Source of the DNA: Conus ventricosus
Taxonomy: Eukaryota > Mollusca > Gastropoda > Neogastropoda > Conidae
Length of the DNA stretch: 64,000 nt
Assembly: GCA_018398815.1 (NCBI GenBank)
Contig: CM031602.1
Location: 97,831,543 to 97,895,542 of the forward strand
Reading direction: 5' to 3'
The position numbers and the translations under genes are program-made. A model generated the notes under the pieces. It saw nothing but the letters and a program-made list of their open reading frames with translations, ran no database searches and was not told the DNA's origin. Position 1 is the first letter of the stretch, and every line of letters begins with the position of its first letter. Positions 30,342 through 64,000 of this stretch are shown here, piece after piece.

Positions 30342-30424
30342 AGAGAACTAATAAACACGGGTCTAGCCCAACCACCCCAACCAGTTCGGGGGGTTGACTC
30401 TAACCCCGTGTTTATTAGTTCTCT
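30342..30424. repeat. Left terminal palindrome of element A (83 bp)
   Basis: The first 20 bases AGAGAACTAATAAACACGGG pair perfectly with the last 20. Inside, AACC(A)CCCC pairs with GGGGGGTT around the nine-base loop AACCAGTTC, leaving an asymmetric internal bulge. The shape is a long basal stem with a smaller apical hairpin. Confidence 0.92.
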
Positions 30425-30665
30425 GACAAGTAAGACTTCAATAACCAAAAAATAACGATTATCTACAAACAAACATACTGTGTAGGATTATCCGTTTTCA
30501 ATACTAATTTACTAAACTTTTCAGATTTTGTTTTTGCTTAATCCTGCGTTTTTCCTAATCTTTTTAAATAACATCATTTTCACGCATACTTTTAAAATCG
30601 AATCCCGCCCTCTGTCTTTTAATTGTTCTCTAAAGTCTTTTAAAATCCACACACTTACCTAACAT
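30342..30665 (-). repeat. Left terminal inverted repeat of element A, including an ATPase 3'-end relic
   Basis: After the palindrome comes GACAAGTAAGACTTCAATAA, then a degraded inverted copy of the ATPase C-terminal codons. It matches about 46825-47190 inverted, and 59831-60210 directly. It lacks the ATPase start and motifs. A deletion of about 20 bp near 30645 separates it from the other copies. The relic shows that the terminal repeat extends into the last gene. Confidence 0.85.
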
Positions 30666-32022
30666 GATAAATCTTATAAAACGAAGTAGATAGACAGACA
30701 GACAAACACTAGCAATCGGCCTGCTTAAGGAAATTTCCCACACTACCAGAACACTTTACAGACATGGAAATCCCAGAGGCCCTTCATTAGGCTAAAACCT
30801 GATCACTTAATTTGTGGTGTTGGGTCTTATGACTTGCAAGTGCAATACCCGTGACCGGCCCATGCCGATCTAGACCCAGCGCCCTCCATTTTAGTTGCGG
30901 CTTTCAATGTAGACGGCCCGTGTTTTGTTTACAGAGGAACAGCCTTCTTGCTATAGATGATCATGTTTTTATTACAACTGTAGGGCGGAGTATTTAAACA
31001 AAAGAAAAATCAGGCGAGCCCAGTTCTTTACTTCCAAGCTAAAGAGAAGTATTGCTTTTTTGGAAGGTGAGGAGAAAAAAAAACGAGAACCACTACTGAA
31101 AAACCCTACACAAGCACCTTGAAAGCTTGTTGATTCAAGACAAGATTTTGCTGATATATTTGAAAGAAAATGTTATAACTTTGATAAGCTTTTTGCCTTT
31201 TGAAGAAAATGATTCTAATTTCTAAAAAAATGGCGCTGTTTTAATTCAAAAAGCTCCAAATGTTTAGTGACGGGTTTAACTACCTGGCAATCAAGAGCCG
31301 CCAAAAAACACTAACTCCGCCAATGCCGGTCCTACCCGGGATGAAAAAGAGGAGATTTTAACTTTTTGTGAAACCCTTTGTAAAAATAGGCGAGAGGCAT
31401 GTGCTGACTGTTACTATAAATGGCTGTTCGCGCGTAGTTTTCCAAGCCAGTGTTTTTTACTAATAAATGGCTGTTCGCGCGTATTTTTTCCCAAAGCCAG
31501 TGTTGTTACTATAAATGGCTGTTCGCGCGCAGTTTCCAAGCCAGCTGCAAAGCGCAGCGGCAAACTAGGCCAAACGACCCCGCTGTGACCCACTTGACCT
31601 GAAATGCTCAGCGGCAAACTAGCCAACGACCCCAGTGTATCATTTGGCCTAGTTGATTGGGGTGCACGCGGGACACATCCTGTTCAGTCACAAGCAAGTG
31701 GCTCCCCAGTTCCACTTTGGACACTTAAACACCTTCACCCCAAGTCAACCCCAAGTCCTTAAATTTAAAGTTCTTAATTAATCACCCCAAGTCCTTAATT
31801 AAGTTTTTTAATCAAGTCCCCCCCAAGTTCTTAATTAAGTTCTTAATTAAGTTCTTAATTAAGTCACCCAAGTTTTTAATAAGTTCTTGATCAAGTCACC
31901 TCAAGTCTTACTTAAGCCCACCTCAAGATTGTAATTAAGTCATCCTCTAAGTACAACCAAGTTCTATTCAATTTAAACTTATAATTATCAGAAAAAAAAA
32001 CAATACAATCTATGTTTTTGTC
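30666..32022. other. Left part of element A without a recognisable gene
   Basis: Holds three imperfect repeats of about 45-50 bp around AAATGGCTGTTCGCGCGTA (31420, 31466 and 31515 regions), a shorter pair around AGCGGCAAACTAG, and AT-rich AAGTTCTTAATT repeats between about 31740 and 31960. No coding sequence was recognised. Confidence 0.6.
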
Positions 32023-32160
32023 TTAAATATAATGTCTAATATAGTACACATACGCCTCAAAAAACGCGTCATCGTTGAGGATGTCTTGCTCAGCGTCCTT
32101 GGCGCGAGATCGGTCAGCATAGATCTTAATGAAGTTCTTACATCGAAAAGAAACCCACAT
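32023..32160 (-). CDS. Small ORF in element A, 45 residues, function unknown
   Basis: An ATG at 32160 opens a frame beginning MWVSFRCKNFIKIYADRSRA and ending YYIRHYI before TAA. The composition is protein-like (charged and aromatic residues in balance) and the orientation matches the neighbouring gene. I do not recognise the family. It could be a fragment of a longer decayed gene. Confidence 0.3.
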   Translation of the reverse strand: MWVSFRCKNFIKIYADRSRAKDAEQDILNDDAFFEAYVYYIRHYI

Positions 32161-32694
32161 TGATTACAATTCTGGTCTATGGAAATGTTTTTTAAATAGA
32201 CTCCATGTCTTTATTTATTGACTCCATCATTTTAAACAAATAATAACCCCGCCATGATCTATTTTTATCAAAGAAACAAAATTTTTATTGCATTTGAAAT
32301 GGATCAAAATGTTCTTTTTTTGTTGGCGGTTCTGGCATCTTTTTTGTTTGGTTTCTGTATTTAGTGGTTCAGATTTTTTTGACTGCTTTCGTTTTTGCTG
32401 TCGCTGTTTAAAAATTTTTTAAATAACAGTAAAAAACCACCCCCAGCAGCAATGGCGCTCAAAGCGCCCAACTTTTTTTAAGTTTAATATTCCATGAAGA
32501 CTTTGGCGTTTATAGGTCTTGAATCAATTTGTTCTGACGTTTTTAATAGCTGGCATTGAATCAACTTGTTCTGGCTTTGGGCGGCGTTATGTTTTCATTA
32601 TGAGTTATTTTCTGTGATTGAAAGCTTTGATTTTTTTGTTTGTTCCACTCTGCTAATCTTTTTCCTGCTGCACACGCCCCGAGAGGAAAGGGTT

Positions 32695-33164
32695 TTACTG
32701 GTCACTTTCTCCACCTGATTCAGTGTTTTCTGATTCTGCAGATTTTTTGGGTCGGCCCTTTTGAAGGGGAAAAAATCTATATGATTTAAAAATAATTAAT
32801 CCCGCGATCACTGGCGACAATAATGTTCCAAATCTGTAATACAGATCACACCCTAGAGACCTAAATGACTTAGTTAAAACTGGATCCTGCGTTAAATCAT
32901 ACATAAAATCTTGTTCAGAATCAATGGGGGCAAATCTACTAACTAGTTTTAAGTGTACAAACTAAGAACCGTTTGTCCTACACTTTTTACCATTCTTGAT
33001 CCCAGTTGCGCTTCATACCTGTTGTGATACTTTACAATGTCTTGTGGCGACATTTTTTGAATCTGTTCTATGCTGAATTCATTTCCGAGGTACTGTTTTG
33101 TTTTTTCCACATGCTGCCAAAGAATACAGTCCTTCCTTTTTGCGCATAATAGCTTGGTCATCAA
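32695..33164 (-). pseudogene. Element A uncharacterised protein, frameshifted (about 150 residues)
   Basis: Two frames on the - strand, 33164-32949 and 32904-32695, read as one protein once a frame change near 32945 is allowed. The first part contains FSIEQIQKMSPQDIVKYHNR; the second contains DPVLTKSFRSLGCDLYYRFG followed by a hydrophobic stretch (LLSPVIAGLIIF) and a basic, Ser/Glu-rich tail. The hydrophobic stretch suggests a membrane segment. It resembles uncharacterised proteins that accompany Polinton-type elements in invertebrate genomes. No function is assigned. Confidence 0.55.
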
Positions 33165-33518
33165 AATTGGGCATTCATAAATTCAGGAAGGTTTAGGCTG
33201 CCCTGTAGCTGTAGTAGATCATCGCTGTCATGTTTTTTATTAATTATAATTATTTTATTTTTAAAAAAGAGCACCGAAAAAACTGTTACCAACCTTTTAT
33301 ACCATTCTGGGGTTATTGGGGGGGTAAGTGTAGATACACAAGCTTGGTAAAAGCCTGTTAAAAATAAAAACGGCAGATCTTGGCAAACTAACTTTGAAGA
33401 CTCAGCAAAGCTATTGCTAATTATTACAGCTTCATTTGCTACGAAAGATTTTTTAGTTAAGCAAGGAATAATTCCAGACAGTAAACAATAGTAAAATTTA
33501 AAAAATACATTTATAAAA

Positions 33519-33912
33519 ATGGCTTCACCGTAATGATGATTGTGGCCTGTGGTTAATGCGCTTGCTTTTTGCGGAAGTAATTTCGCGTTTAGTAAACCTG
33601 CGGGATGACGGCGAGAGAAAAAGACATAACAAAGCTATGGACAACTAGCCGCAGCACAAGATCACTATGAAAAGCAGAGAATTGAGCAGTTAGATTTTAT
33701 CAATGACACACTAAAAAAAAGGGGCATGCAGCTTACACATTTAAAGATGTTGATCAAGCGATAAAAGAATATTATCTTTAACAGGCAAGCCAATCGAGAC
33801 ATTGCCCCCACCAAAATTCAGCGACTTTTATCATCCATCAGAAAAACAAAAGATGCAAGAAATCGTGTTTATTGTCTTTGGTATGACCGTTGTGTATTTT
33901 TTTTGCGCATAA
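33519..33912 (+). pseudogene. Element A small membrane-anchored protein, frameshifted
   Basis: From an ATG at 33519 (MASP...) to TAA at 33910-33912, protein-like sequence shifts frame at least twice. A charged helical middle (DHYEKQRIEQLDFINDTLKK) is followed by FSDFYHPSEKQKMQEIVFIV and a C-terminal hydrophobic segment ending FFCA. That layout suggests a helical domain plus one C-terminal membrane anchor. The gene ends 17 bp before the integrase start, on the same strand. No enzymatic motif is visible. Confidence 0.55.
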
Positions 33913-33929
33913 TATTGGGTGAATAAAAA

Positions 33930-34876
33930 ATGAACAAAATTTATTATTCGCCAAAAGGATATTGGAAGGGAATAACAGCAATCAAAAAGCTAAGCCAAGC
34001 AGCTGGGGTCAGTGAACAAACAGCAAAGGAATGGTTATCTAAACAAGCGATTTGGCAAATTTATTTACCAGCGCCTAAACGAATACAGAGACCACACTTT
34101 ATGAACACAATGCCGAACGACACCCATCAAATGGATCTTCTATATTACCCCATGAAACGATTAACGAAAAAGATTTAAGTACCACTACATCATTGACGTA
34201 GCTTCAAGATACAAAGATGCGGAACCATTAACACAAAAGAGTGCTTCTGCTGTTGCTGTTGCTATACAACTAATATATCAACGAGGCCCTTAACTTATCC
34301 CCGCATGATTCAAGTCGATGATGGAAAAGAATTTAAAGGGCCCAGTGAATCAATTATTGTTAAAAAATAGAGTTACAATTAAAAGAGGCATTCCGGGAGT
34401 TCACAGATCACAGGCTTGGTTGAAAACTTTAACAAACATTATCTGAAAGGCTTTCTCCTACCATTTTCACAGAGAGCTGATTGACAATTTTCCGCAACAC
34501 AGAATGGGGTTTAAAAAGACTGCCCTCAGTTCTACGTGCAATGAATAATGAAGAATTTAAATTAACAGGTCTAAAACCAGTACAAGCAATCAAAAAACAA
34601 ACAATAAATGCTGTTGAAGGAGAGTCTTCATCCAGCAAACTATTACCATTTGGTTTGAAAGTAAGGTACCTTTATTTGCCGAGAAGCAGAAGGGACACTC
34701 GCTTCAGGCAACAGATCCAGTTTGGAGTGTTGACCCGTATGAAAAAAAGAATTGTAAAGATGAATCCGCCCATGATTATTTACGAGAAACTGACACAACA
34801 AAACAACCAGCCCCCCCAAAGATCTTTTGTGAAGGAAGAACTGCAGATAATCCCGCCCGACACAGTTCCACTTTAA
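33930..34876 (+). pseudogene. Retroviral-type integrase of element A (RVE, DDE), frameshifted
   Basis: The frame opens with MNKIYYSPKGYWKGITAIKK and a helix-turn-helix-like segment (LSQAAGVSEQTAKEWLSKQA). The first catalytic Asp is in THQMDLLYYP. After frameshifts near 34150 and 34290 the second Asp lies in IQVDDGKEF (34317) and the Glu in GLVENFN (34422), about 35 codons on. The C-terminal part KLLPFGLKVRYLYLPRSRR ends with SFVKEELQIIPPDTVPL and TAA. The expected length of about 315 residues fits Polinton integrases, which insert the element DNA into the host genome. At least three frame breaks make this copy inactive. Confidence 0.88.
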
Positions 34877-34904
34877 CTGATTTTCGTAAATATATTGACT
34901 TAAA

Positions 34905-35072
34905 ATGGAAGCCCAAAAAGCGCAGAATGATACAAGAATAATAAATGAAAAGACCTTGGAATTAATGCGGAATCATATTGATATGAATTTTGCTATTAAG
35001 GCAATGGTTGCGGGATTCATCGGGACATGGCAATGCATCCAATCACCTACAGCCCAAAATCCCAAATTTTGA
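34905..35072 (+). CDS. Element A small ORF after the integrase, 55 residues, perhaps a fragment
   Basis: Begins MEAQKAQNDTRIINEKTLEL and has a hydrophobic run (FAIKAMVAGFIGTW). It ends at TGA, but protein-like sequence resumes in another frame to about 35290 (for example YAVLQCPIAYENSG). It is therefore probably the start of a frameshifted gene. It converges on the end of the polymerase on the opposite strand. Not recognised. Confidence 0.4.
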   Translation: MEAQKAQNDTRIINEKTLELMRNHIDMNFAIKAMVAGFIGTWQCIQSPTAQNPKF

Positions 35073-37080
35073 TTTTTAGGTATGGGGTAAAGAATATCTT
35101 GAAATGAAATAAAAAAAATTCCAAGCACATCAACAAACATGAGAAAAATTTTGTCTGAATTGGATATTGATATGATTGAGCTCTAGATAAAGTTGAGGAA
35201 AACCATGATATGATTGAGGAAAAATATGAAGAAGATATTAATTATGCTGTTCTCCAATGCCCGATTGCATATGAAAACTCTGGATTAACAAATACCGTTT
35301 TGTGTTTGTTCTATCTAATGACTCTTTGTTACAAAAAAGTTGTGTTGATCTCATGTAGATTAGATCGTAGTTTTACGTTGTCATGATGAAAAGTCTTATT
35401 GACAAGCAATGCTTCTTTTTAGTTGTCATGTGATATGCTCGACTGCACAACACTGCGAGATATTCCCTTTGCTTTTTTGATAGTTTTCCTCCTGGCTCGA
35501 AAAACTGTACATTTTTTACCTTAACCCAACAAACTCCTTGATCACCCCTCCAGATAATTCATCCTTCATCTTTCCTAAAACCTTCTTGTTAACAGTTGAA
35601 TGCAAAGGCGAATCTTAGGATAATCAGATTGTCGTACCATCCCGCATGCCCTTTAGCTACTTCTAATTCCATGTCTTTATAGATATCTTCAGTAGGGATA
35701 TCTATAACAAAACTGTCTGTATCTGTGTAAAGCACTCTGGACTCAGGATGCAAGGGCTTAAAGTAGTCATAAAGAAATTCTAACATCAAAAGCTTTGATA
35801 ATTCTAAACAGTAAACCCAATAAAAACGGCTTATCCAATTTGACTTTCTTTTTTTTCATCATTATACCAAAAAGCTGATCATGAAATCTTCTGAAGTCCT
35901 GATAATTAGTTTAGAAGTCAGCTTAATTGCATCGTTCTCTTTGGTGACCAATCTGACATCTTTACGCTTGTGCGGATTCTCCATAGTCTTTCCGAAACAG
36001 CTGTTGTTCATCAGCTTGAAAAGTCTTTTCTGAAGCATCTGTGGATTTAGTTCTGAGATCAGTATTCTCATGATGTATGGTTTCATGAACTGTTCTTGAT
36101 CAAAAGCAATTAACGATGAACACTGTCAACTTCAAACCATGTCTTAAATAAAATTGCAGAAGTCTGTAATGACAGACATAATTTTTTTTTGCCTCGAAGA
36201 TTAGGCACAAGTTTAGGAGGTTCTGTTTTTGCCATCTTTAGACTTTCTGCTGCTAACGGATAGTCATTATGCAAGTCATGGAGTTCATGAGGATATTCTA
36301 AGTCAACTTCTAGAATGTATCCACGCTGTTGACCCGGCGTTAAACTGCTCAACCACTTTAATGCTCTTTGAATATTTTTTGGATCTTTGGCTGTGAGCAT
36401 TTTAAAGTTACGTAATGGAAGCGATTGCGCCATTGCCCATCCATACAGATTGTTTGCATCTAAATACATGAGATAGTTAGAACCTTTTACTTGGATCATA
36501 GTCGTCAAGTATTTGTTGTTTGCTTTACAGTAATGGTGCGACGCCATACTAATTCCTCCACGCAATCCGTTTTCAATCATCTGAATCATTGGTAGGTCAG
36601 ACAATAAATCAATCTGTACTTTAGTAAACTTTAAGAAAGCGTCCCAACTCATCCCGGCGCAGAAATATAATGCGCAGGATCAAAACTGTAATGTTTCATG
36701 CAGGTCTTTCTGTAATTTTCAAAGACGTCCGCCAACAAACATACATCAGCCATCAAGTACAGACATCACATAAAGTTAAGGACCAGTCAAGATAATAGGT
36801 GCATTTTCAAAAAATCATAAAAAACCAACGAATAAGATTTATCATGTAAAACTCGGTGGCAAGGCTGAGGGTCAATAGTAAATACGTCAACTGCTGTGTG
36901 GGCTGCACGTGTGCGTCACGCAGCATGCTGGGCGCGTTTGAAAATCGACAATTTCAGCAAAACTGGAGCGTGTTTCAGTGGTCAGTGCGTGATACCTGTG
37001 GCTTTGTGAAGGGCCAAATTGAGATGCACGTGGATTAATGGATATCTGGCTATGATTTATACTCCTTGGTTTGCCTACAT

Positions 37081-37180
37081 AAGCAGCAGCATGCCACCAC
37101 GACAAAAGTTAAATGATTTCGACCGAACCCAAGCAGCAGCATGCCACCACGACAAAAGTTAAATGATTTCGACCGAACCC
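37081..37180 (+). repeat. Perfect 50-bp tandem duplication across the transposase start codon
   Basis: The 50 bases beginning AAGCAGCAGCATGCCACCAC occur at 37081-37130 and again at 37131-37180. Because 50 is not a multiple of three, translation from the first ATG (37091) runs out of frame, while the second (37141) gives the transposase. Confidence 0.97.
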
Positions 37181-38169
37181 GAGCGATTGCCTGGCTGCAG
37201 GATGGAATTGGCGTGCGCGAAGTGTCACGCAGGCTTCAAGTGTCGCACTCAGTCATCATTCGGTTGAGACAGCGGTTCCAGGTGACAGGAAGAGTCCAGG
37301 GGCGGCGTCGCAGGGGTCGTCCCAAGAAAACGACAGCAAGAGAAGACCGCTACATCCACCGCCAAGCCATAGTGCAACGAACGAACTCTGCCAACATCAT
37401 CAGACGACGTCTGCGAGCTGCCACTAACACCACAGTCAGTTCGCAGACAACACGTAATCGCCTCCATGACGTCAACCTTCGTGCGCGTCGTCCATTACGA
37501 AAACCAAGGCTGACCCAGATCCAGCGAGCCAACCGTCATGCCTGGTGCACTGCGCACCAGAGGTGGCCACGTGCCCAGTGGACAGAGGTTCTGTTCACTG
37601 ATGAATCACGGTTCTGTCTGACACCCAGTGATGGCCGAACCCGTGTCTGGAGGCGTCCACGGGAGCAGCTTGCTGCCAATGCAATTCAAGAAGTGGTCCC
37701 CTTTGGAGGCGGCTCCGTTATGGTTTGGGGAGGAATCAGCAGGCATCACAGAACCCCCCTTTACCATGTCGACGGTATACTGACAGGGCAGCGGTATCTG
37801 CAGGAGATCCTTCGACCTCTGGTCGTCCCGGCGCTGCAGCAGATTGGGCCTGCTGCTGTCCTTCAGGACGACAACGCCACGCCACACAGGTCCAGGGCCA
37901 TCAACGCCTTCGTGCAGCAGGCGGGGATTACCCGCATGGTATGGCCAGCCAACAGTCCCGACCTTAATCCCATCGAACAGTTGTGGGCCGAGCTCGGTCG
38001 GAGAGTTCGAGAGAACCACCCTTTGCCCGCCAACCGACATCAGCTGCTTGGATGGCTGCAAGAAGAATGGAACACTATTCCTCAGGCCTTTCTGGCACGC
38101 CTGATCAACTCCATGCGCCAGCGTTGCCTTGACTGCCTTGCCATGAATGGTGGACACACGCGCTTCTGA
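37141..38169 (+). CDS. Tc1-type transposase, intact, 342 residues, DD34E
   Basis: This enzyme cuts and rejoins the transposon ends at TA sites. An N-terminal helix-turn-helix (AIAWLQDGIGVREVSRRLQV, residues about 15-45) is followed by a basic GRRRRGRPKK hook near residue 55. A second DNA-binding region follows to about residue 120. The catalytic Asp residues are in VLFTDESRF (about residue 155) and LQDDNATPHR (about 246), and the Glu is in SPDLNPIEQLW, 34 residues after the second Asp. The frame has no break, unlike every gene around it. The start lies in the second copy of a 50-bp duplication; the ATG of the first copy (37091) is out of frame. It reads on the strand opposite to the polymerase. 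Confidence 0.95.
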   Translation: MPPRQKLNDFDRTRAIAWLQDGIGVREVSRRLQVSHSVIIRLRQRFQVTGRVQGRRRRGRPKKTTAREDRYIHRQAIVQRTNSANIIRRRLRAATNTTVSSQTTRNRLHDVNLRARRPLRKPRLTQIQRANRHAWCTAHQRWPRAQWTEVLFTDESRFCLTPSDGRTRVWRRPREQLAANAIQEVVPFGGGSVMVWGGISRHHRTPLYHVDGILTGQRYLQEILRPLVVPALQQIGPAAVLQDDNATPHRSRAINAFVQQAGITRMVWPANSPDLNPIEQLWAELGRRVRENHPLPANRHQLLGWLQEEWNTIPQAFLARLINSMRQRCLDCLAMNGGHTRF

Positions 38170-39944
38170 CAATCCATTGACATTCATGAAGTTTAACCTC
38201 TCTTTTTCTGTGATTTTGTTCAAATGTTTTTCGACTCACATTTGTGTGATTTTCGATTTAGAGGGTGGGCCGATTTCGAGCGCTGCGAATTGTGCATTTC
38301 TGTATCGATTGTGCTAAATTTCATTTTAGGCACATATGGATTGTTGAAATAAATGTATGTCAAAGATGGATGGAATCGATTTTCTAGTTTCTATTTGGCG
38401 TGCAATTTTGCAAGTGGTCCTTAACTTTATGTGAAGTCTGTATGAATCTGATAGTCCCCCATTGTTTTACCACTCTAACTTCTGCCACGCATCTTGAGCA
38501 TGCTGGTAATGGGAATCACTGATTTCCTTTCCTTTAAGCCCTATAACAGAACGCAACTTTGGGAGGAAGTGTATCTTCGTCAACCTTTCCCAACTGTTCA
38601 TGTATTCATAAGGGTAAACGCCCTTTCTAACAAGAGTTGGGTCAAAATATTCTTCCGTTATTGGCAGGTTTTTAAGGACATAGCTAGTGACTCTAATGAT
38701 CCCATCATGTGCTGCATGGGAGTCATAAAAAGACATGTTTTTAAAAAGTGAAACACATGTACTTTTCTGATGACTGTGAAATGCATGACACCCTAAAGGG
38801 CTCGGTTACTGCTTGCATTATAAGGTGAGAGTCGTAACCTCGCAGTTGTGAAAGAATACAGGCAGCTTCCATGTCTTTGGTTCAAACTTTAGTTGAAGAT
38901 TGCATTTACTGTGTGCTGTCCTCTGAACTTTCCCACAATGTGATCATGGTCTCTTACTGTCGGATTCGCGTCTTCACTGTTAGACATTAGTTTCTAAACC
39001 ACAAATCCAACAATGTGTGGCTGATTTATACTGTTGTTGGTCTTCGGGCGTCATTATGATTTCAGATAATTTTAGATTATTAGAACAGTCATTACGCACT
39101 TTCTGCATGCGTTCTAAAAAGTTTTTCTGCAGCATCTGGCCCTCTATACAATTCTGGTGCTGAATGGGCGCCATCCGACCTGAAAACAATGAAGGCAAAT
39201 GAAAAAATTGATGATTACTCATTAAGACCGTTTTTTCGAAGTTTTTGTGGTGCTGGTCCCTCATAAGGAACAATGAGTGATTAAAGTCTGCGTAAACAAC
39301 ATATGGAGAATTTTGCACCCGTTTCCAGTTCTTAAAACTAACTTTGATCCAGGTGGGGGCGTAATTATTTCTGTATTACAGTCAACTGGGCCGATACAAT
39401 GTTTCTTATGTTCGCTCCCGTGCTTTAACGGATGGAATTCTTGTTAAACATTTTCTACAGAATTCTTGTTTATTTTTTGCTTTAAAGTATGCGCCAATAA
39501 TCACTCTTTGTGCGTATCAATGTGTAATGTGGTAGCCCTGCGGGTAAAAAACATCAGTAGTAAGTCAACATGATTTTTGTCTGCTCGCCCAATCTTTTGG
39601 GCTGTTCTTAGACCTTTAATGGGTGTAGATTTTTTTTCCTCATCCCATGTGTAGATATTAAAGTTATTGGTTTGTTTGTTCTTCAAACAGATCAATTTGA
39701 TCTACGCAACGGGAAAGGATTTTCCCATTGAAGTTAAGATCATTGATGTAATCCCAATAGTTAGTCACCTCTTTTGCGTGTTTGGGGACGTGATGCAGCC
39801 TTGCAAGAACACACCACATGAAACATTTGTTGTCTGTATTTTGTATGTTTAGAATGCTCTTTTCGCTACCAATGCTGGGGCAGCGGAATGAGCCTTGCCT
39901 ACAAATCGGTGCATACTTAGCCTGGTTTTAATCTGATCTCTAGG

Positions 39945-40050
39945 ACTTCGCCCTCTGACCAACCAGAGCCTCCATTTTGGCTTCTTCAGCGGCTTCATCA
40001 AACGTGTAAGCAGTTTGTCTGCCCAACCGGGTGGTTAAGTCATTATAGAA
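39945..40050 (-). pseudogene. Fragment of a small element A protein upstream of the polymerase
   Basis: On the - strand, protein-like sequence including LGRQTAYTFDEAAEEAKMEA ends at a stop near 39945, just before the polymerase start. It may be the tail of a separate small gene or a broken polymerase leader. Not recognised. Confidence 0.3.
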
Positions 40051-40104
40051 GAATAGTCTGCTGTTTAGTTAAAGACCCAGACTTCAGATTTTCTTCATTT
40101 ATTG

Positions 40105-40302
40105 TTAATAGTCGTTTAAAACAGCTAACATTACTTTAACTGGCGGGTCTATTGTTAGTTTACTTGGAACTGAGAAATTGCATGTAAAAACGCTTGCCCG
40201 CACGTTTTCTGGATTAATAACTTCTAAATCAATATCATTCAATACTCTTGACAAACTTTCTTCCTCGAGCTTTCCCTTCAAACAATTCATCTGGGCCTTC
40301 AT
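40105..40302 (-). CDS. Small intact ORF in element A, 65 residues, function unknown
   Basis: Starts MKAQMNCLKGKLEEESLSRV and ends with AVLNDY and TAA. Its ATG lies 5 bp after the stop of the preceding gene on the same strand, a spacing that suggests a compact, virus-like gene array. The second half (FTCNFSVPSKLTIDPPVKVM) looks like beta strands. No family was recognised. Confidence 0.45.
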   Translation of the reverse strand: MKAQMNCLKGKLEEESLSRVLNDIDLEVINPENVRASVFTCNFSVPSKLTIDPPVKVMLAVLNDY

Positions 40303-40307
40303 ATATC

Positions 40308-41090
40308 TTAGCCTTTGCTGTCTTTCTTTTCTAAGCCAACATATTTATTTAAATCAAAAAAATACAACGACACCAGGGTCGTCTTAATCAAAATCATATC
40401 GACGGTCTTTTTGTGTTTGGACTCATAAACGAAAGTAAAAACGCCCTTTGGGGTTGTTAATGCGAGCTGTTTAAAAACAGAGTTTAATGTCTCGTTTACT
40501 TTTTTTAAACATTCCTTTTTTATCTGATCGGTGTCTGGCTGTTGAGAAAAAGTTGTTCTTGCCTTTCTTTGAAGATCAAACTTTTGTCTTTTATAGTCCT
40601 CAAAATCAGCCTGTAAACGACTAAATTCTTCATCCGTGATGTTTGGTCAGCTAGTGCTTTATTTTTGTCAGTTTGAAGGAACTAAGTTTAGCTGTTATTA
40701 GTTGAACCATAGCTGTGTGCTTTTGGATTTTAGTTTTTATTTTTTTGCTGGCAGTACTTACAGCTAATGAGCACAGGCCAAGAGCAAAAGACAAACGCCT
40801 AGGGTAAAGCCGCGGGTGCGCCTACGCCTGTTGCTAAGAGCCCCAACATCGTTCCTGCGTTTAGAGCACTTATAGTTGATGTTCCAGTATTTAACATATG
40901 AAACAGATTAAAGGCAGCAGAATACCTTCTTTTGGGTTTTGCTGTATTTTGAAAGGTCCTGCTTAGTACTTGCCGCATTTGTGGTAATGTTGGTTAATCT
41001 GAAAGTTTTTATGTTGGGGCTTTCTATAGCAGCAGAGTTGCCTATCTCTTCTTTAGGTCCCTTCGGATAATGCTGAACAACATGTTTTTT
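40308..41090 (-). pseudogene. Element A uncharacterised protein with a hydrophobic core, frameshifted (about 260 codons)
   Basis: On the - strand the N-terminal side includes HYPKGPKEEIGNSAAIESPN and LTNITTNAAST. It is followed by a Gly/Ala-rich hydrophobic region near 40860-40760 and a long charged, helical C-terminal half (ITDEEFSRLQADFEDYKRQK; LTTPKGVFTFVYES) to TAA at 40308. At least four frame changes are needed. Similar uncharacterised proteins accompany Polinton-type polymerases in invertebrates. A membrane-associated or structural role is possible but not shown. Confidence 0.5.
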
Positions 41091-41110
41091 AAAAAATAAA
41101 AAAATAATTT

Positions 41111-42359
41111 AGTATTGTATATTTTCTAATCTGTTATCTTGAATATTCAGCTGCGCATCTTATTAAAACAATACACATTAAGTGGTTTATCGACATCTTT
41201 TTCTTTATCAATTTGAATGTTTATTATGTCTCTAACACTGTTCTCCCACTTCCATGTAACTGTTTATCCTCTGTTGACCTTAGGCCAATCCATAAACCGT
41301 ATTTCGTGTTAAATAATGATCAAGTCTAACACTGTGAAGATGTAGATCTTTAGACACAAGGTCACTGTTGGATTTCTACCCCTCCCGCCTCCAAACAGTT
41401 TTCTTATTTCATCAAAATGCTGAAAAGGGTTTAAGCCCGCTACGTAGATTTGGTTAGGCTACCCTCAATTGTACATGCACTTTCGTTATTTTGGATTAAC
41501 AAAATTTCAGTTTGTTTTTTGAATGGTTCTTCATTTTCACAAAAGCAATAAAATACCTTTAAGCGATCTTGCTGCGGCACTAAACTAAAATTCCATATAT
41601 GTCTGCCTGCTTTTGAATATTTAGAATGAAAAATCACTCTTTCGTAATATATTGCAAAATTTTGACTGATATTGTTGCTCAATCAGCCTTGCTAAGTTAG
41701 GGTTGCTAACGATGTCAAACTCTAACGAATGTCAGAAATGCTGTACTTTGCTTCGGTGTCTGTAGATATAATAACATATTTGTAGTCATTAAAAGTTAGT
41801 TCATAGGGACAATCTGTCTTTTAATGCTCCTTGAAAGTATGGGGCATGCGCTTTTAACAACTCAAAATCTAGGGGTATGAAAAAGCGATTTCCATACGCA
41901 TAACTTACGGCTACAAACCTTTTGCCGTCTTTAGCATCTTCAGCGCCTATTCTATGTTTTAGTGCTTCTTCATTTTCAATTTCTTGAAAGCAAGATCAGC
42001 CCTTTCATTCGCGGTTAGCCATAGATCAAGATAGGTTAAAAATATGTCTGCATTTTGTAAAGAAATATTTCTTGCCCCTCAAGTTTTATAAAATTTTCTT
42101 AACGATTGCCCCCCAGATTCTGTAAACTGTCCTGTTTGGGTCTGTTGTTGAAGCGAGTTCTATTTTGAAAGTAAGACGCGCAGAGCCTGGCACAATCACT
42201 TCATTGCTCCTAGTTTTGGAAATTTGACAGTAAGAATTTGATCTGCATCAATAGTAATGGATTATTTGGAACCCGTAATATTCCGCTTATTTCCCTTCAC
42301 GCCAAAGGGCTCTTTCAGTCTTCTATGCGGTCAAGAATTGAGCCATATGCTTGTGACAT
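41111..42359 (-). pseudogene. Element A putative capsid-type protein, heavily frameshifted (about 415 codons)
   Basis: The start MSQAYGSILDRIED is at 42359 and the end DAQLNIQDNRLENIQY precedes TAA near 41111. Between them, strand-rich segments in changing frames include IVPGSARLTFKIELASTTDP, LWLTANERADLAF, AYGNRFFIPLDFELLKAHAP and ISDIRLEFDIVSNPNLARLI. The many short beta-like, Asn/Tyr-rich segments suit a jelly-roll virion protein, and its place between the ATPase block and the polymerase agrees. That is an inference: no defining motif is visible. The gene diverges from the one starting at 42401. Confidence 0.5.
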
Positions 42360-42400
42360 TTTTTTATAAAACAAAATAAAAAAGTTAATTATTTAAAAAC
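42360..42400. promoter_or_regulatory. Short AT-rich spacer between divergent genes, a likely shared promoter
   Basis: Only 41 bp separate the start codons of two divergent genes (42359, - strand; 42401, + strand). The spacer is almost all A and T and contains TTTTTATAAAACAAAATAAA. Transcription from it is inferred from gene layout alone. Confidence 0.35.
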
Positions 42401-43603
42401 ATGGCGGGCATTGAAGGTGAAGAAGATTATGATGTTCCTGATCCCGGAGACGACATGATGAAATGACTCCTTTGATACAGCATCGCTCAGCGCTCTCAAT
42501 CGGAGTGAATTAACAGAAATTACGGCCAGAGAATTTTACAAAAGTTTAGGCCTAGAACTCCTGAAGTTTTAGACCCTAATGATTTTGTAAAAGATGATGA
42601 TGGCCATTTGTATTTTAAAACGATCAAGGTGAACGTGTTCCGCTTACAACTAACGAGAACCCTTAAATTTTTAGCTGTGGGTAAAAATTAGACAAAGACT
42701 CAGTGTGAGCGAACAAAATCGCCTTGGCATTCCTAAAACCAAACCCAAAAATTTGATAGGGGGCGCGGTTGCTAAACTTCAAAACACACTACAAGAACTC
42801 CCAAAAGATAACCAAATACAAAACATGGAACTTCAAGTTTTAAATCAATCAGCAGATGAAATAATAATGCAATAGAAGCCAGAAACCAGTTTTTCAGAAG
42901 AAAACAGCATTAAAAACTATCCACGATCCGCAGTTACCCATGCGAGAATTAGAGGCTCTATCGTACTTTAAGAACCATTAGAGGTAATTAAAAACAATTC
43001 GCAAAACGATGAACTAAATGAGGATATAAAAAGAGAAAAGAAAAACTGCTGAGGCTGAGGACGCCAACTTAGTACCTGATGTTAAAGAAAGAATAACCCA
43101 AAGACTAAAAGAGCTTAAAGAACTGAGGATTAATAAGAATAAAGTGGGTCTACTAACCGAGAACAATTACGAACTCAAGTGAGCAGAATTTAAAAGAAAC
43201 TATCCAAAGAATTTTATATGAAGACACAACGCTAGCAGAACGAATACGAACACTGTTTAGAGAGCAAGGATTCAATTAGCGAGCGTTATAACAGCCTTAG
43301 GATTTGCAAAAAAGTACACTGGTGTTGGCTATTACAGGGGGCGGTGGAGGTCAAAGCCTAGTGCCTCCATCGCCCTCACCTCCACCTGATAAATTTATGG
43401 GTAAAAAAACAGCTTGATCATCTTGCGGGTTTATTAAAAAAAATTAGCCAGTAAAAGCCTAGACTCTTTACCTGGTATATTTTGGGGTATTGTTAGCTGG
43501 CTTTGTCTTCTGCAAGCAAATAGTTGGCTTTATAGCTGAGCACTTATGGGCATTAGTTCTCTTAATAGTTGGGTTAATTTTTAGTAAGATAAAGACCAAG
43601 TAA
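42401..43603 (+). pseudogene. Element A coiled-coil/membrane protein, frameshifted (about 400 codons)
   Basis: Begins MAGIEGEEDYDVPDPGDDMM. It continues in shifting frames with SELTEITAREFYKSLGLE, a long Glu/Lys-rich helical stretch (about 42960-43200), TTLAERIRTLF, a Gly-rich linker (TGGGGGQ), a Pro-rich segment, and a hydrophobic C-terminus ending FSKIKTK with TAA at 43601-43603. The layout suggests an acidic N-terminus, a coiled coil and one or two membrane segments. The same protein is partly present in element B at 63351-63980. The 3' end overlaps the opposite-strand gene by 30 bp. Function unknown. Confidence 0.6.
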
Positions 43604-44813
43604 TCCTAGGCCAGTTAATCCAAAAACAAGCGCTGTCTTTCATATTCATGGCCATTATTTTTTTTGACTTCGTGGACTTCGCGTTCTTCAACAGCCTTTG
43701 GGCTTTGGGGCCCTTGGGGGGTTTGGATGACTTATTCTTGGGGGGGGGGGGGGGGGGGGGGCGGCTTGTTTGTTTAAATGTTTGTAATATTACTGGCTCA
43801 GAATTTATGTCGTTTTGTCCAACCTTTGTTCATTTGCTGCCCAAGGATTTCATTGTTGTAGTTTATTATTGTTCCTACCTGGAGTCTGAGTCAGAAGGGA
43901 GCATGTATAAACCAGTGCCAACAGCAAAGTCTACTTTCGATCTTGCGAATTGTAAAACATTTTGGTAACCCTTTTTAAAACTTGAAGGTAAATCAACTGT
44001 TTGAATTAATGGCGTCCTCTAAATTTGCCAAGTACTGTTTTTGTGCATCAAAGCCAGTAGAAGGATCAGTTATGCTCGATCTTGCCTGTGCTTGTGAACC
44101 TAGCAAACACCAAACGTAAGTACGAATAGAGTCGTTTATTCGTTCTATTCCGCTCTAGTTAGGCCCTTAGAAGTGTCTATGATAAATGTTGTCCTGCTGT
44201 TTTATGCTCTTGCTCTATGGACAAAAGGGGAACAGTTGTGTCTGAAGAGAAAGATGTATAAGGAGGATTCCAGGCATAGTTATACTTTCTTGCACGCCCA
44301 AAAATAAAGGGTGCCTAAGCCATGATTGCGGTCCAACTTTTGTCTAAAGTCTGTCTTAACATTAATATTAATTCGTTACAGTCCTTTCAAAGCCTTCAGT
44401 CTATTCTTTTGCTAAATGGATTTTTAAAAGGGTTTTTCATTTGGTAATGGTGTTTCAGTTCAGTCAAAATACGTCTGAAGGTGTAATAAAAATGAAATCT
44501 ATACACTGACCTCACCAAAGGATCAGGATGATTTTAAGTGATCAGCATACGATAGTCCACACCCAGTTGATGCACAAAACACAGCAAAGTTTAACGGTTC
44601 TGATAAAACTGATCGGATGACTGAACCACACTTTCGCGATGTAGTCTTTTTTAATAGGGGGGTTAAGATATCTGTTTAATGGCGTACTCACCTTTAAATT
44701 GAAAGGTGGGCAGTCTGGGTCACAGAAATGACAAGAGATCAGTTGTTATATTTTTTAAGATTGTTGTGCGGCCCAACAGAATATTTTGCATTAGTATATT
44801 TGAATGCACTCAT
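43574..44813 (-). pseudogene. Element A copy of the 401-residue protein, broken
   Basis: On the - strand the start MSAFKYT is at 44813 and the end precedes TAA at 43574. It matches the intact gene at 62172-63377 of element B along its whole length, but has many one-base changes in frame and a run of about 19 G near 43741. The C-terminal hydrophobic anchor is still readable. See the element B entry for the protein itself. Confidence 0.8.
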
Positions 44814-44831
44814 TTTTAATTTGTTTTAAAA

Positions 44832-45537
44832 ATGTTTGTAACAATAACAACTCAAGACAGTCCTTTGTTTTTAGAGTATGCTATTGATAACGAAAGCGGA
44901 GCCCGAAGGGTTGCACTCCAGAAAATTTCTACAAGTCGTTTGGTTTTTAATATTACTGAATCCAAGAAGAATAATAAGATTAAAAAATTGACAATAGAAG
45001 AAACTTAGGGTTTGGGCCCGTTAACCCTACCTGATGGTTATTACGGGTTTTGCTCACTAAAAGAAGCAATGAGTAACTTCAAATTTACTCTCAACTTAAA
45101 AATGCAAATCTCAAACAATGTTAACATTCAAGCCGGGAAAAAGAAGAAGTAGGTTATATTTTGATAAAGAGCTAGCTAAATGTTAGGCTTTGCAACTGAC
45201 AGCCCGGGGCTTTTAAGTTTTAGTGTTACAAACCCGACAAAACTACTTATGAGGGGGGAAAATCCGCTCAATCTTTTCATTACATTCATTACTCTATGTT
45301 CATTTCGATGAGCTGAGCACTGATGAAAACTTATGTGATGGAAGGCCCTCAACTGTTTTAAGAGCTCTTGCATCAGGGAAAGCTGCATATTGCGATTATG
45401 AAATTATACAATTCCCTAATTTACAGTTTAAAAGATTAGCTTGCGGAAAGGTCGGATCATTTAATGTAAAAATCACAGACAAAACAGGGAAAGTCGTAAA
45501 ATGTGATAATCTGCACATTGTTTTGGAAATAAAATAA
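44832..45537 (+). pseudogene. Element A copy of the strand-rich FVTITTQD protein, broken
   Basis: Begins MFVTITTQDSPLFLEYAIDN at 44832 and ends LEIK with TAA at 45535-45537. It corresponds to the - strand block 62153-61450 of element B. Unlike B, the join GYYGFCSLKEAMSN near 45060 is in one frame here. Other breaks follow near 45010, 45120, 45180 and 45250. It reads as an Asn/Thr-rich beta protein of about 234 residues, so a virion protein is plausible. The family was not recognised. Confidence 0.65.
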
Positions 45538-45554
45538 TATAGTACTAAAAAATA

Positions 45555-46410
45555 ATGTCGCGCGGGCCAGAAGAATCGGGAGTTACATTAGCGCCTGTGA
45601 GGTGTATAACTTTAGAATTAAAAGACCTTGCGGACGTTGCAGACTTTGAACAGAACGGTGAGACAGGCGCTTTGTATGGTTTTGAGTACACTAAAGATGG
45701 TGATTATAAACGCAAAGAGGTTGGCGACAGCAAAAAGTTTCCTAAACTAGAACAACTACGCAATCTAGAAGCAAATAATGTTGGTCAGTATGAATATAAA
45801 ATAGTTCGAAAACCTGACCTCAATGGCACTTGGAACCATATTTAGAATGGGACATAAAATTTGAATTCATAAGCCTATTTACATTTTTTAGCCGTCAAAA
45901 AAGTTTCAGAAAGCATTCAACTCTGGCCCTTTACATGTAAGTCTTATGCCAGAGGACAATAGTCGGAAAGAGATTGAAATAACGCCGTATGGGAATAAAC
46001 AGTACATCCTCCACAGAAGAGAAACGGTTTTAAAGGACGCTTCTACAAATTTACAGTTCATTCCACAAATGAAATTAGGAGACACGTTCACAATGATATT
46101 TGAAATTTCTGTCTTAAAAGATGTGGCGAGGAATGGAGCTGTGGGTGTCAGTGACGTCCTTTTAAAAGGAATTCTAATTAGCTGGCAAAACTTAGACGTT
46201 GACCGTCTTAAAGTTACCATCATCGTTCTTCACAATGGTGAGGATATTAAGACCATAACAACAAGCAACAAAATCAATATTAGTCTAAATAGAAACAATC
46301 TTACAGAACTGAATTGGATTAATATTACACATTTAGGCCTCATAGGGTTTTATTATACTGAACAAGTTTTGACGGAGAGTATGATAAAAATAATAACTGG
46401 ATTAGATTAA
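45555..46410 (+). pseudogene. Element A copy of a 285-codon uncharacterised protein, one or two breaks
   Basis: Starts MSRGPEESGVTLAPVRCITL at 45555 and continues to about 45840 (RKPDLNGTW). There a frame change is needed before the second half, which runs from FNSGPLHVSLMPEDNSRKEI to IKIITGLD and TAA at 46408-46410. Strand-rich segments such as LGDTFTMIFEISVLKD and VTIIVLHNGEDIKTITTSNK suggest a beta fold. It lies between the FVTITTQD gene and the ATPase on the same strand, as in element B. A minor virion protein is one possibility. No motif defines it. Confidence 0.65.
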
Positions 46411-46426
46411 ATTATGTTATAAAACT

Positions 46427-47063
46427 ATGGAGCAGACAACTTTGGTGTCAATGCCGATGTTAAACTTTATGATAAAATCCCCTCATTGTTCAATGATTTG
46501 TGGGCAGACTGGCTGTGGAAAAACAATATTTGTCCTCGACCTATTACAAACAGTTTATCGTTTATAATTTTAATCATATAGTAATTTTCTGCCCAACACT
46601 TAAATGGAACAAAGCATATAATGATAGAAGGTTTATATGGGCGGATGATAACATATATTTAATTGATCCCAGCAATAAGCTGAGTGAGTGTTTAGAACAC
46701 TTTTATAAATTGTTTGAGGGAACGCAGACGCTATTTATTATAGATGACTGTTCGTCAGAAAGAGACATAGTTAAAAAGAGAAACACTTTGTCAAAACTGG
46801 CTTTCAGTGGAAGACATGCTGGGATAAGTGTGTGGATTTTATGTCAAAAATATAACTCCGTTTTAAAAGACTTTAGAGAACAATTAAAGACTATAGTTTT
46901 ATTTCACATGAAAGACAGAGACGCATTTGATGAATGTATGCGCGAAAATGATGTTATTGAAAATGATCAGGAAAAACACAGGATTAAGCAAAAACTAAAA
47001 TCTGAAAAATTTAGTAAATTAGTATTGAAAACGGATAATCCTACACAGTATGTTTGTTTGTAG
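46427..47063 (+). pseudogene. A32-like packaging ATPase of element A, one frameshift
   Basis: A start at 46427 is in frame with the Walker A motif ICGQTGCGKT (about 46493-46522). A frame break follows near 46560. The second frame contains VIFCPTLKWNKAYNDRRFIW, the Walker B strand TLFIIDDCS and ISVWILCQKYNSVLKDFREQ (sensor region), ending NPTQYVCL and TAG at 47061-47063. At about 212 residues it fits the FtsK/HerA-related ATPases that pump DNA into capsids in Polintons and related viruses. The stop is 40 bp from the terminal palindrome, and the gene's 3' end is part of the terminal repeat. Confidence 0.88.
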
Positions 47064-47102
47064 ATAATCGTTATTTTTTTGGTTATTGAAATCTTACTTG
47101 TC

Positions 47103-47190
47103 AGAGAACTAATAAACACAGGGTCTAGAGTCAACCGTCCCGAAACTAGTTGAGGGCGGTTGGGCTAGACCCCGTGTTTATTAGTTCTCT
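47103..47190. repeat. Right terminal palindrome of element A (88 bp)
   Basis: AGAGAACTAATAAACAC pairs with its complement at the outer end. After one A-C mismatch, eight more pairs follow. AACCG and CCC then pair with GGG and CGGTT around the loop GAAACTAGTTGA. Read from outside inward it matches the left palindrome, in the same arm order. Confidence 0.92.
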
Positions 47191-47194
47191 TGGG

Positions 47195-59830: not shown

Positions 59831-59920
59831 AGAGAACTATATAATACCAATCCTAACTCACTTCGCCCTCAAACCAGTTTTCGGGCGAAGTGACCTAGGA
59901 TTGGTATTATATAGTTCTCT
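59831..59920. repeat. Terminal palindrome of element B (90 bp, 38-bp stem)
   Basis: AGAGAACTATATAATACCAA and the next five bases pair perfectly with the inner arm. Two mismatches (AC opposite CC) follow, then 11 more pairs up to CTTCGCCC/GGGCGAAG around the loop TCAAACCAGTTTTC. The first eight bases AGAGAACT and the apical part (CGCCCTCAA...CAGTTT...CGGG) agree with element A, while most of the stem does not. Confidence 0.93.
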
Positions 59921-59959: not shown

Positions 59960-60560
59960 TTACAAACATGCATACTGTGTAGGGTTATCCGTTTTCAATA
60001 CTAATTTACTAAACTTTTCAGATTTTAGTTTTTGTTTAATCCTGCGCTTTTCCCTGATCATTTTCAATAACATCATTTTCGCGCAAACATTCATCAAATG
60101 AGTCTCTGTCTTTCATGTGAAATAAAACTACAGTCTTTAACTGTTCTCTAAAGTCTTTTAAAACGGAGTTATATTTTTGACATAAAATCCACACACTTAT
60201 CCCATCCTGAAAGCCAGTTTTGACAAAGTGTTTCTCTTTTTAACTATATCTTTTTCTGCTGAACAGTCATCTATAATAAAGAGTGTTTGCGTTCCCTCAA
60301 ACACTTTATAAAAGTATTCTAAACACTCACTCAGTTTAGTGCTAGGATTAACTAAATATACGTCATCGTCTGTCCATATAAACCTTCTATCATGATATGC
60401 TTTGTTCCTTTTAAGTGTTGGACAGAAAATCACAATATAATCAAAATTATAACGATAAACTGTTTGTAATAGGTTGAGGACAAATATGTTTTCCCACAAC
60501 CAGTTTGTCCACAAATTAATGAACAATGAGGGTTTTTGTCATAAAGTTTAACTGCTCCAT
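59960..60560 (-). pseudogene. A32-like packaging ATPase of element B, frameshifted
   Basis: The start MEQLNFM is at 60560 and the stop TAA at 59962-59960. The Walker A sequence ICGQTGCGKT is readable near 60510-60481, but in a different frame from the start and from the rest: one base is missing near 60490 relative to element A. Walker B TLFIIDDCS lies near 60285-60259. A deletion near 60200 also changes the frame after KLAF, and the C-terminal codons resume after it. The role is DNA packaging, as described for the element A copy. Confidence 0.85.
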
Positions 60561-61449: not shown

Positions 61450-62153
61450 CTAATTATTTATTTCCAAAACAATGTGCAGGTTATCACATTTTACGACTTT
61501 CCCTGTTTTGTCTGTGATCTTTATATTAAATGATCCGACCCTCCCACAAACTAATCTTTTAAACTGTAAATTAGGGAATTGTATAATTTCATAATCGCAA
61601 TATGCAGCTTTCCCTGACGGAAGAGCTCTTAAAACAGTTGAGGGCCTTCCATCATATAAGTTTTCATCAGTGCTTAGCTCGTCCAAATGAACATAGAGTA
61701 ATGAATGTAATGCAAGATCGAGCGGATTTTCTCCCTCATAAGTAGTTTCGTCTGGTGTAACTCTAAAACTATGAAAGTCCTGATTGTCAGTTGCAAAGCC
61801 TAACATTTTAGCTAGCTCTCCATCAAAGTAGTAACCTACTGCTTCTTTTTCAGGTTTGAAGGTCAACATTGTTTTCAGATTCGCATTGTTAAGTTTGAGA
61901 GTAATGTCAAAGTTACTCATTGCTTCTTTTAGTGAGCAAAACCATAATAACCATCAGGTATGGTTAACTGGCTAACTAATTGTCCTCTATTATTAACTTT
62001 TTTAATCTTATTATTATTCTTGGATTCACTTATATTAAACCATACAACTTTGTAAAATATTTCATGAAGCGCAACCATTCTGCTTCCGCAATTGTTATCA
62101 ATAGCATGTTCTAAAAACGAAGGACGGTCTTGAGTTGTTATTGTTACAAACAT
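61450..62153 (-). pseudogene. Element B copy of the FVTITTQD protein, one base short
   Basis: Two adjoining frames, 62153-61929 (MFVTITTQDRPSFLEHAIDN to DGYYGFAH) and 61920-61450 (MSNFDITLKLNNANLKTMLT to IVLEINN), correspond to one continuous frame in element A at the same point. A has GGGTTTT where B has GGTTTT near 61945. They are most simply one gene of about 234 codons with a one-base deletion in B. A split into two genes is the alternative. Both halves are otherwise clean. Asn/Thr-rich and strand-rich; no family recognised. Confidence 0.7.
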
Positions 62154-62171
62154 TTTTTAAACGAAATAAAA

Positions 62172-63377
62172 ATGAGTGCGTTTAAATATACTGATGCAAA
62201 ATATTCTGTTGGGCCGCACGACAATCTTAAAAATATAACAACTGATACTCTTGACATTTCTGTGACTCAGTCTGACACCTTTCAAGTAAAGGTGAGTACG
62301 CCATTAAACAGATATCTTAACCCCCCTATTAAAAAAGACCACATCGCGAAAGTGTGGTTCAGTCATCCGATGCAGTTTTATCAGAACCAGTTAAATTTTG
62401 CTGTGTTTTGTGCATCAACTGGGTGTGGAGTATCGTATGCTGATCATTTAAATCATCCTGATCCTTTGGTGAGGTCAGTGTATAGATTTCATTTTTATTA
62501 CACCTTCAGACGTATTTTGACTGAACTGCAAGCACCATTACCAAATGACAAACCGTTTAATCCATTCAGCAACAGAATAGACATGAAGGCTTTTGAAAGG
62601 ATTTGTAACGAATTTAATATTAATGTTAAGACAGACTTTAGACAAAAGTTGGACCTTAATTATGGCTTAGGCACCCCTTATTTTTGGGGCGTGCACAGAA
62701 AGTATAACTATGACTGGGATCCTCCTTACACATCTTTCTCTTCAGGCACAGGCGTTCACCTCGGGTCCATAGAGCAAGAACATAAAACAGCATGGACAAC
62801 ATTTATCTTAGACACTTCCAAGGGCTTAACTAGAGCGGGAATAGAACGAATAAACGACTCTATTCGTAATTACGTTTGGTGTTTGCTAGGTTCACAAGCA
62901 CAGACAAGATCGAGCATAACTAATCCTTCTACTGGCTTTGATGCACAAAAACAATACTTAGCAAATTTAGAGGACGCCATTAATTCTACAGTTGATTTGC
63001 CTTCAAGTATTAAAAGGTACCAACATGTTTTACAATACGCAAGATCGAAAGTAGACTTTGCTGTTGGCACTGGTTTATACATGCTACCTTCTGACCTCAG
63101 ACTCCAGGTAGGAACAATAATAAACTACAACAATGAAATCCTTGTGGCAGGCAATGAACAGAAGGTCGGAAAAAACGACATAAATTCTGAGCCAGTAATA
63201 TTACAAACAATAAAAAAACAAGATGACCCCCCAAGATTAAGTCATCCAATCCCCGAGGTCCAAAGCCCGAAGACTGTTGAAGACCGCAAAAAAAGTAATG
63301 ACCATGAATATGAAAAGACAGCACTTGTTATTGGATTAACTGCCCTAGGATTACTTAGTCTTTATTTTACTAAATAG
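62172..63377 (+). CDS. Element B 401-residue protein with a C-terminal membrane anchor, intact
   Basis: ATG at 62172 (MSAFKYTDAKYSVGPHDNLK) to TAG at 63375-63377, with no break. An upstream in-frame codon at 62130 is less likely because the ATG at 62172 follows an A-rich leader and matches the start in element A. Notable parts: TPYFWGVHRKYNYDWDPPYT, TGVHLGSIEQEHKTAWTTF, AGIERINDSIRNYVW and AQTRSSI. A Pro/Glu/Lys-rich hinge follows, then a hydrophobic segment TALVIGLTALGLLSLYF at the very end. It diverges from the FVTITTQD gene by 18 bp and overlaps the convergent gene by 27 bp. A capsid or capsid-associated role is possible; no motif proves it. Confidence 0.85.
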   Translation: MSAFKYTDAKYSVGPHDNLKNITTDTLDISVTQSDTFQVKVSTPLNRYLNPPIKKDHIAKVWFSHPMQFYQNQLNFAVFCASTGCGVSYADHLNHPDPLVRSVYRFHFYYTFRRILTELQAPLPNDKPFNPFSNRIDMKAFERICNEFNINVKTDFRQKLDLNYGLGTPYFWGVHRKYNYDWDPPYTSFSSGTGVHLGSIEQEHKTAWTTFILDTSKGLTRAGIERINDSIRNYVWCLLGSQAQTRSSITNPSTGFDAQKQYLANLEDAINSTVDLPSSIKRYQHVLQYARSKVDFAVGTGLYMLPSDLRLQVGTIINYNNEILVAGNEQKVGKNDINSEPVILQTIKKQDDPPRLSHPIPEVQSPKTVEDRKKSNDHEYEKTALVIGLTALGLLSLYFTK

Positions 63378-64000
63378 TAACCCAACTATTAAGAGAACTA
63401 ATGTCCATAAGTGCTCGGCCATAAAGCCAACTACTTTGCTCGCAGTAGACAAAAGCCAGCTAACGATACTCCCTAATATACCTGGCAAAGAGTCTATAGC
63501 TTTACCGGCTAATTTTTTTAATAAACTCGCAAGATGATCAAGCTGTTTTTTACCCATGATTTATCAGGTGGAGGAGATGGCGGGGAGGCACCGAACTTTG
63601 ACCACCGCCGCCCGTAATAGCCATCACCAATGTACTTATTGCAAATCCTAAGGCCGTTATAACGCTTGCTAATGTGACTCCTTGCACTCTAAACAGGGTT
63701 CTTATTCTTTCTGCTAGCGTTGTGTTTTTCATATAAAATTCTCTGGGTAGTTTCTCTTACTTCGCTTACTTGAGTTTGTAATTGTTTCTCGGTTAGTATT
63801 CAACACTTCTAGTCTAACTAATCTTTCTGTATTAAGGTNNNNNNNNNNNNNNNNNNNNNNNNNNNNNNNNNNNNNNNNNNNNNNNNNNNNNNNNNNNNNN
63901 NNNNNNNNNNNNNNNNNNNNNNNNNNNNNNNNNNNNNNAATTATTTCCTGTGACAGAACAACGCGCACGGCAACACACAATCAGCAGTGTGACCAATGCT
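63351..64000 (-). pseudogene. Element B coiled-coil/membrane protein, C-terminal part, interrupted by the gap
   Basis: Two - strand frames, from 63732 (MKNTTLAERIRTLFRVQGVT, hydrophobic TALGFAISTLVMAITGGGG) and to 63351 (LDHLASLLKKLAGKAIDSLP, then FMAEHLWTLVLLIVGLLFSK), join by a frame change near 63555. Upstream sequence runs into the 100-N gap at 63839-63938. Two hydrophobic segments suggest a membrane protein. It corresponds to the C-terminal third of the gene at 42401-43603 of element A. The N-terminal part is beyond the window. Confidence 0.65.
63839..63938. other. Assembly gap, 100 N
   Basis: Exactly 100 N, the conventional placeholder for a gap of unknown size. The 62 bases after it cannot be assumed contiguous with element B. 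Confidence 0.99.

Follow-up and report, generated by a model that had tools for sequence, protein, structure and literature searches.

Three palindromes of 83–90 bp lie at the visible ends of two elements, A and B, in the 64-kb stretch of DNA analysed here (the window), which probably comes from an animal. The arms of each palindrome pair exactly, and the main stem has changed between the two elements on both arms at once. We propose that these are fold-back termini of a Polinton-type element whose replication uses one arm as the template for the other, a reading to which we give a probability of somewhat under one half (about 0.47). The termini would fold in vivo, the copying would take place as the element replicates, and the hairpins may serve in the replication or the protection of the ends.

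Element A extends from 30342 to 47190 (16.8 kb, including an inserted transposase-like ORF) and is bounded by terminal inverted repeats that have AG...CT ends. Element B begins at 59831 and runs out of the window. Inside the palindrome, the non-palindromic part of the repeat begins with GACAAGTAAGA; over 160 bp of it the three ends share 94–96% identity. At the left of A this part occupies 30425–30660 on the forward strand (end approximate), its match to the right end fading after ~240 alignment columns; at the right of A it occupies 46870–47102 on the reverse strand (start approximate) and overlaps the 3' part of the ATPase ORF. A is the sole insertion of which both ends are visible, and no 6-bp target-site duplication is seen there: the flanking six bases do not match as such, and the match is limited to a 4-bp TGGG at 30338–30341 on the left and at 47191–47194 on the right, a possible 4-bp target-site duplication. 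A longer duplication may have decayed, since the inner repeats of the two ends differ at 6 of 158 bases, a sign of an old insertion.

By its ATPase and its integrase- and polymerase-like pieces the element appears to be of Polinton type, an assignment that does not extend to full membership of the Polintons, as a 6-bp target duplication was not seen and the polymerase is putative. The preliminary description had placed an A32-like ATPase beside the ends. For A this is borne out by a packaging ATPase ORF piece at 46497–47063 on the forward strand (Pfam PF04665, E 3.3e-9; PHROG terminase large subunit, E 1e-7), for which 403 homologues were found at E 0.001. For B, the two ORF pieces at 60036–60538 on the reverse strand are identified as ATPase because their DNA matches element A; the piece 60197–60538 alone gave no match in Pfam. 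Putative integrase pieces of the rve type occur in several frames at 33927–34876 on the forward strand, where acidic motifs were recognised by eye and 33927–34178 matched a PHROG transposase (E 8e-4); the two pieces of this region tested against Pfam gave no match. Broken pieces resembling a family-B DNA polymerase, again by motifs seen by eye, lie at 35589–39375 on the reverse strand. Five of them had no match to a polymerase family in Pfam and PHROGs, and one had none among PDB sequences. They are split by an open 350-aa transposase-like ORF (37117–38169), which we take to have a Tc1/mariner look.

Element B also holds a conserved 420-aa ORF at 62115–63377 on the forward strand, with a C-terminal helix and 714 homologues at E 0.001. 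Its structural model is mostly helical (pLDDT 86), and no match to the fold was obtained at E 0.001 in the PDB or in viral structure libraries. Among the 20 of 89 listed ORF pieces that were scanned with Pfam, we recognised no nickase or resolving enzyme and no HUH nickase with an SF3 helicase. Further along in B, 100 consecutive N at 63839–63938 probably mark a gap in the assembly. Between the two elements, the segment 50001–52000 has a GC skew of 0.96 at 64.5% GC and is probably a G-rich simple repeat.

The palindromes were confirmed at the coordinates given for them in the preliminary description. The left terminus of A (30342–30424, forward strand, 83 bp) has a 20-bp perfect outer stem, an interrupted inner part and an apical hairpin with AACCAGTT. 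The right terminus of A (47103–47190, reverse strand, 88 bp) has the same stem as the left, with one G-T cell at pair 18 of the main stem, and the terminus of B (59831–59920, forward strand, 90 bp) has a perfect stem of 25 bp. As single-stranded DNA they fold with energies of -28.1, -32.9 and -36.8 kcal/mol, respectively, which correspond to z-scores of -8.8, -12.1 and -15.9 against dinucleotide shuffles; none of 200 shuffles equalled any of the ends. In the whole 64-kb window, arms matching at 17 or more of 20 positions over spans of 80–92 were found at the three element ends and at one unrelated palindrome only, and in 50 order-1 Markov simulations of 64 kb a match of 17/20 arose once and was never exceeded. 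The unrelated palindrome, at 8931–9038, is a near-perfect one of 108 bp with 36-bp perfect outer arms, a short mismatch and inner arms; it is of other sequence and has no link to the elements. An assembly artefact or chance is thought an unlikely source of the terminal palindromes, because the three ends have their base, loop core and adjoining DNA in common and the simulations fall short of such arms. An RNA hairpin in the ATPase mRNA was set aside, by reasoning only, since both ends of A have the structure and it coincides exactly with the termini. A search of the whole window against Rfam gave no match at the gathering score.

All three hairpins are built on the same plan. The 9-bp base AGAGAACT(A) and the loop core AACYAGTT, both noted in the preliminary description, were confirmed and are kept in each of the three ends. 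At the base, AGAGAACTA pairs with TAGTTCTCT in 3/3 ends, and the outermost bases are paired in every case, as self-priming would require. Above the base stands a main stem of 20–26 bp, which is separated from an inner stem by a small internal loop rich in C; the two sides of this loop read CC and ACT in A, and AC and CC in B. The inner stem then leads to the apex around AACYAGTT; the left end of A has an additional interruption at missing bases. The asymmetric core has the same orientation throughout, the as-read score being higher than the flipped score in all three comparisons. Flip and flop arm orders, which the preliminary description had proposed to look for, are thus represented by one orientation only in three ends, an outcome that random flip and flop would yield with a probability of 1/4.

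When the right end of A and the end of B are compared in register over the first 25 pairs of the main stem, 16 pairs are unchanged, nine are changed on both sides and none is changed on one side. The preliminary description had regarded the two stems as different; nine pairs are indeed altered, but the stems are not simply different, as the other 16 are identical in register. Watson-Crick pairs make up 24 of the 25 in both ends, the exception being the G-T pair of A. The changed pairs lie partly in runs (pairs 10–12 and 18–22), and given these runs the nine paired changes may represent few events. In a MAFFT alignment of the three ends, too, nine of 25 pairs carry a change in each arm and no pair varies in one arm only, and all 73 lettered cells form standard pairs, one G-T among them. 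None of 500 column shuffles yielded nine double-changed pairs, 8 of 500 equalled the observed number of further pair types, and six slid registers had at most one double-changed pair each; both controls are weak, the alignment being of three sequences only. Simulations of independent substitution at 0.065 per base produced no more than three double changes in 200,000 runs. Two elements, with three ends in all, enter the comparison of arms. Differences also occur at 22 of 40 columns of the inner stem and apex in the three-end alignment, which is probably poorly placed in that part. The paired stem change proposed in the preliminary description, with base and loop core kept, is supported, and the element in which it occurs has integrase-like pieces and polymerase-like motifs in addition to its A32-like ATPase.

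A fold that is maintained while its sequence varies, on a conserved base and with a conserved loop core, could also be the product of selection for a folded end, bound by an integrase, a terminal protein or the packaging ATPase, with compensatory mutations following stepwise. However, no half-changed pair is present among the 25 compared between the right end of A and the end of B, and the 6–8% divergence of the neighbouring DNA leaves a short time for such steps. We consider this account rather improbable. The preliminary description had named both selection and the rebuilding of one arm from the other as possible causes; the lack of one-sided pairs suits copying more than slow compensation under selection.

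The stem stands out from its surroundings in rate as well. Between A and B, 10 of 159 bases differ in the inner repeat beside the palindromes and 242 of 3150 aligned bases differ in the 3.2 kb adjoining the end. With neighbouring DNA that is 92–94% identical, the change in the stem is therefore both fast and paired: even at one event per pair its rate is ~5 times that of the neighbouring DNA (P 6e-5 at 0.077 per bp, in a test picked post hoc). So abrupt a shift from nearly identical adjoining DNA to a changed stem might mean that recombination between the base and the apex, which both elements share, exchanged the whole terminal hairpin for that of a more distant relative; the difference would then reflect exchange and not mutation. 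The common base and apex would allow such an exchange, and the similarity of the mid-stem arms of A and B was equalled by 150 of 2000 shuffles and so is not beyond chance; the mid-stems may not be homologous base by base. Yet the two stems are equal in length and have 16 of 25 pairs in register, nine of them in the conserved base, and an exchange leaves unexplained why the donor's own arms match. A swap of this kind seems to us quite unlikely.

Copying between arms need not be tied to the ends of an element, as ordinary template switching at a quasi-palindrome would even out the arms of any near-palindrome and would give a hairpin with no special role in end replication. A study in yeast reports that template switching homogenises the arms of inverted repeats and gives rise to clustered substitutions (PMC8604942), and for this reason generic copying stays a rival. 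The clustering of the changed pairs at 10–12 and 18–22 agrees with it. It leaves unexplained, however, the conservation of the base and the loop core and the position of the palindromes exactly at the ends of both elements. Nor is there any evening-out between the ends of the inserted A, where the main stem has three differences only. On these grounds we regard generic template switching as unlikely.

The two ends of A offer a contrast to the comparison of A with B. Presumably they matched when the element inserted; now three alignment columns of the main stem differ between them, with no change that preserves pairing: a base lost from the left end (column 18), a substitution in the right end (column 73) and a further base lost from the left end (column 68). 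Columns 18 and 73 are alignment partners changed on different ends, and to count three one-arm events assumes that the deletion in column 18 and the substitution in column 73 arose separately on the two ends. Set against the nine paired and no one-sided changes between A and B, three one-arm events give P 0.0045 in a Fisher test, which was post hoc and is based on small numbers; with substitutions only (one substitution) P is 0.1, and the contrast is weaker still if columns 18 and 73 count as one pair. Another 7 columns that differ between the two ends of A fall in the inner stem or apex and were left out of the count. Because A's own ends have no pairing-preserving difference in the main stem, paired change seems, on few events, to be tied to replication. 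This hints that the arms drift apart while the element resides in the chromosome and are brought together again when it replicates.

A scheme of arm-from-arm copying could be envisaged as follows. The element would be of Polinton type, with the palindromes as its true termini, and would encode an integrase and, judging by motifs, a protein-primed polymerase. Outside the chromosome, the terminal strands of the element would fold back on themselves, and in replication synthesis would template one hairpin arm on the other. This might happen by either of two routes: the paired 3' end may prime its own extension, or the polymerase may switch template at the hairpin. Since one arm would be copied from the other, a change in one would soon be present in both. 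As we propose, proteins would read the base (where the junction and the integrase end lie), the C-rich internal loop and the loop core, and these parts would be kept for that reason; the stem between base and loop would be free to vary in sequence as long as pairing holds. An integrase cannot use a closed hairpin and needs an open duplex end, so if this reading is right both open and folded forms of the terminus must exist.

The element resembles Polintons/Mavericks in its A32-like ATPase, its integrase- and polymerase-like pieces, its terminal inverted repeats, its 16.8-kb length and its AG...CT ends. The Mavericks of vertebrates end in (AG)3//(CT)3, measure 12.7–24.6 kb, and have inverted repeats of 46–1447 bp and 6-bp target duplications (PMC8097293). 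The present element differs from Polintons/Mavericks in that the outermost 83–90 bp of each repeat is a fold-back palindrome, and from those of vertebrates in the 4-bp TGGG match at the insertion of A in place of a 6-bp duplication. In outline the proposed copying is analogous to that at parvovirus hairpins. In AAV, too, the terminal self-complementary palindrome is internally asymmetric, and the repeat continues beyond it as non-palindromic sequence; this repeat is of 145 nt, and the 125-nt palindromic end self-primes, the hairpin placing the 3' hydroxyl (PMC1131931). In contrast to AAV, the termini here form a single hairpin and not a T shape, there is no flip/flop in the three ends, no Rep-like gene was recognised in the pieces scanned, and the carrier element bears an integrase. 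Bidnaviruses are thought to unite an ancestry among parvoviruses with the polymerase and inverted repeats of a Polinton, although these repeats are stated not to form parvovirus hairpins (PMC4061559). The ends of element A and element B are also like those of poxvirus-like linear genomes, which have imperfectly paired terminal hairpins, but the integrated form here has an opened, double-arm palindrome, and no resolvase was identified.

To our knowledge, the replication of Polinton ends has never been directly shown. Neither 'hairpin' nor 'palindrom' is present in the main text of PMC8097293 on vertebrate Mavericks or in PMC4642659 on a Polinton-like virus. In the available parts of PMC11071308, PMC4455052, PMC12747079, PMC6431247, PMC6723459, PMC5718144, PMC3630058, PMC1131931 and PMC4061559, hairpins are mentioned for other matters (Helitrons, excision intermediates, polyadenylation, a giant virus, a fungal plasmid and AAV) or are denied, and never as Polinton ends. 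No description of palindromic Polinton ends was found in the literature searched, much of it in partial text; the absence is a weak one, with most subscription papers and the adintovirus paper lying outside that literature.

Searches with the element proteins found no further copies in viral contigs or in prokaryotic genome contigs. A loose DNA pattern recovered at least 120 stretches from viral contigs; in two of 120 AGTTCTCT occurs within 130 bases, and neither is a comparable palindrome. Relatives of three of the element proteins lie on metagenomic contigs of which the longest are ~13.2–13.7 kb, a length of 13209 recurring for all three, and these contigs are perhaps complete free genomes. 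One relative of the ATPase, P0254, is filed under the bacterial symbiont assembly Candidatus Thiodiazotropha ex Monitilora and is likely to be DNA of the host clam.

A bolder form of our proposal, of which we are doubtful, is that in an integrase-bearing, protein-primed lineage protein-capped duplex ends have been replaced or supplemented by fold-back hairpins, each round of replication restoring one arm from the other; the lineage would then bridge the Polinton and the parvovirus manner of replicating ends. Change of arm with arm would offer a test legible from genomes, with paired changes expected on replicating branches and one-sided decay on chromosomal branches. It would also bear on the kinship of hairpin-ended and protein-primed viruses, two groups that are joined in one published scenario for bidnaviruses (PMC4061559).
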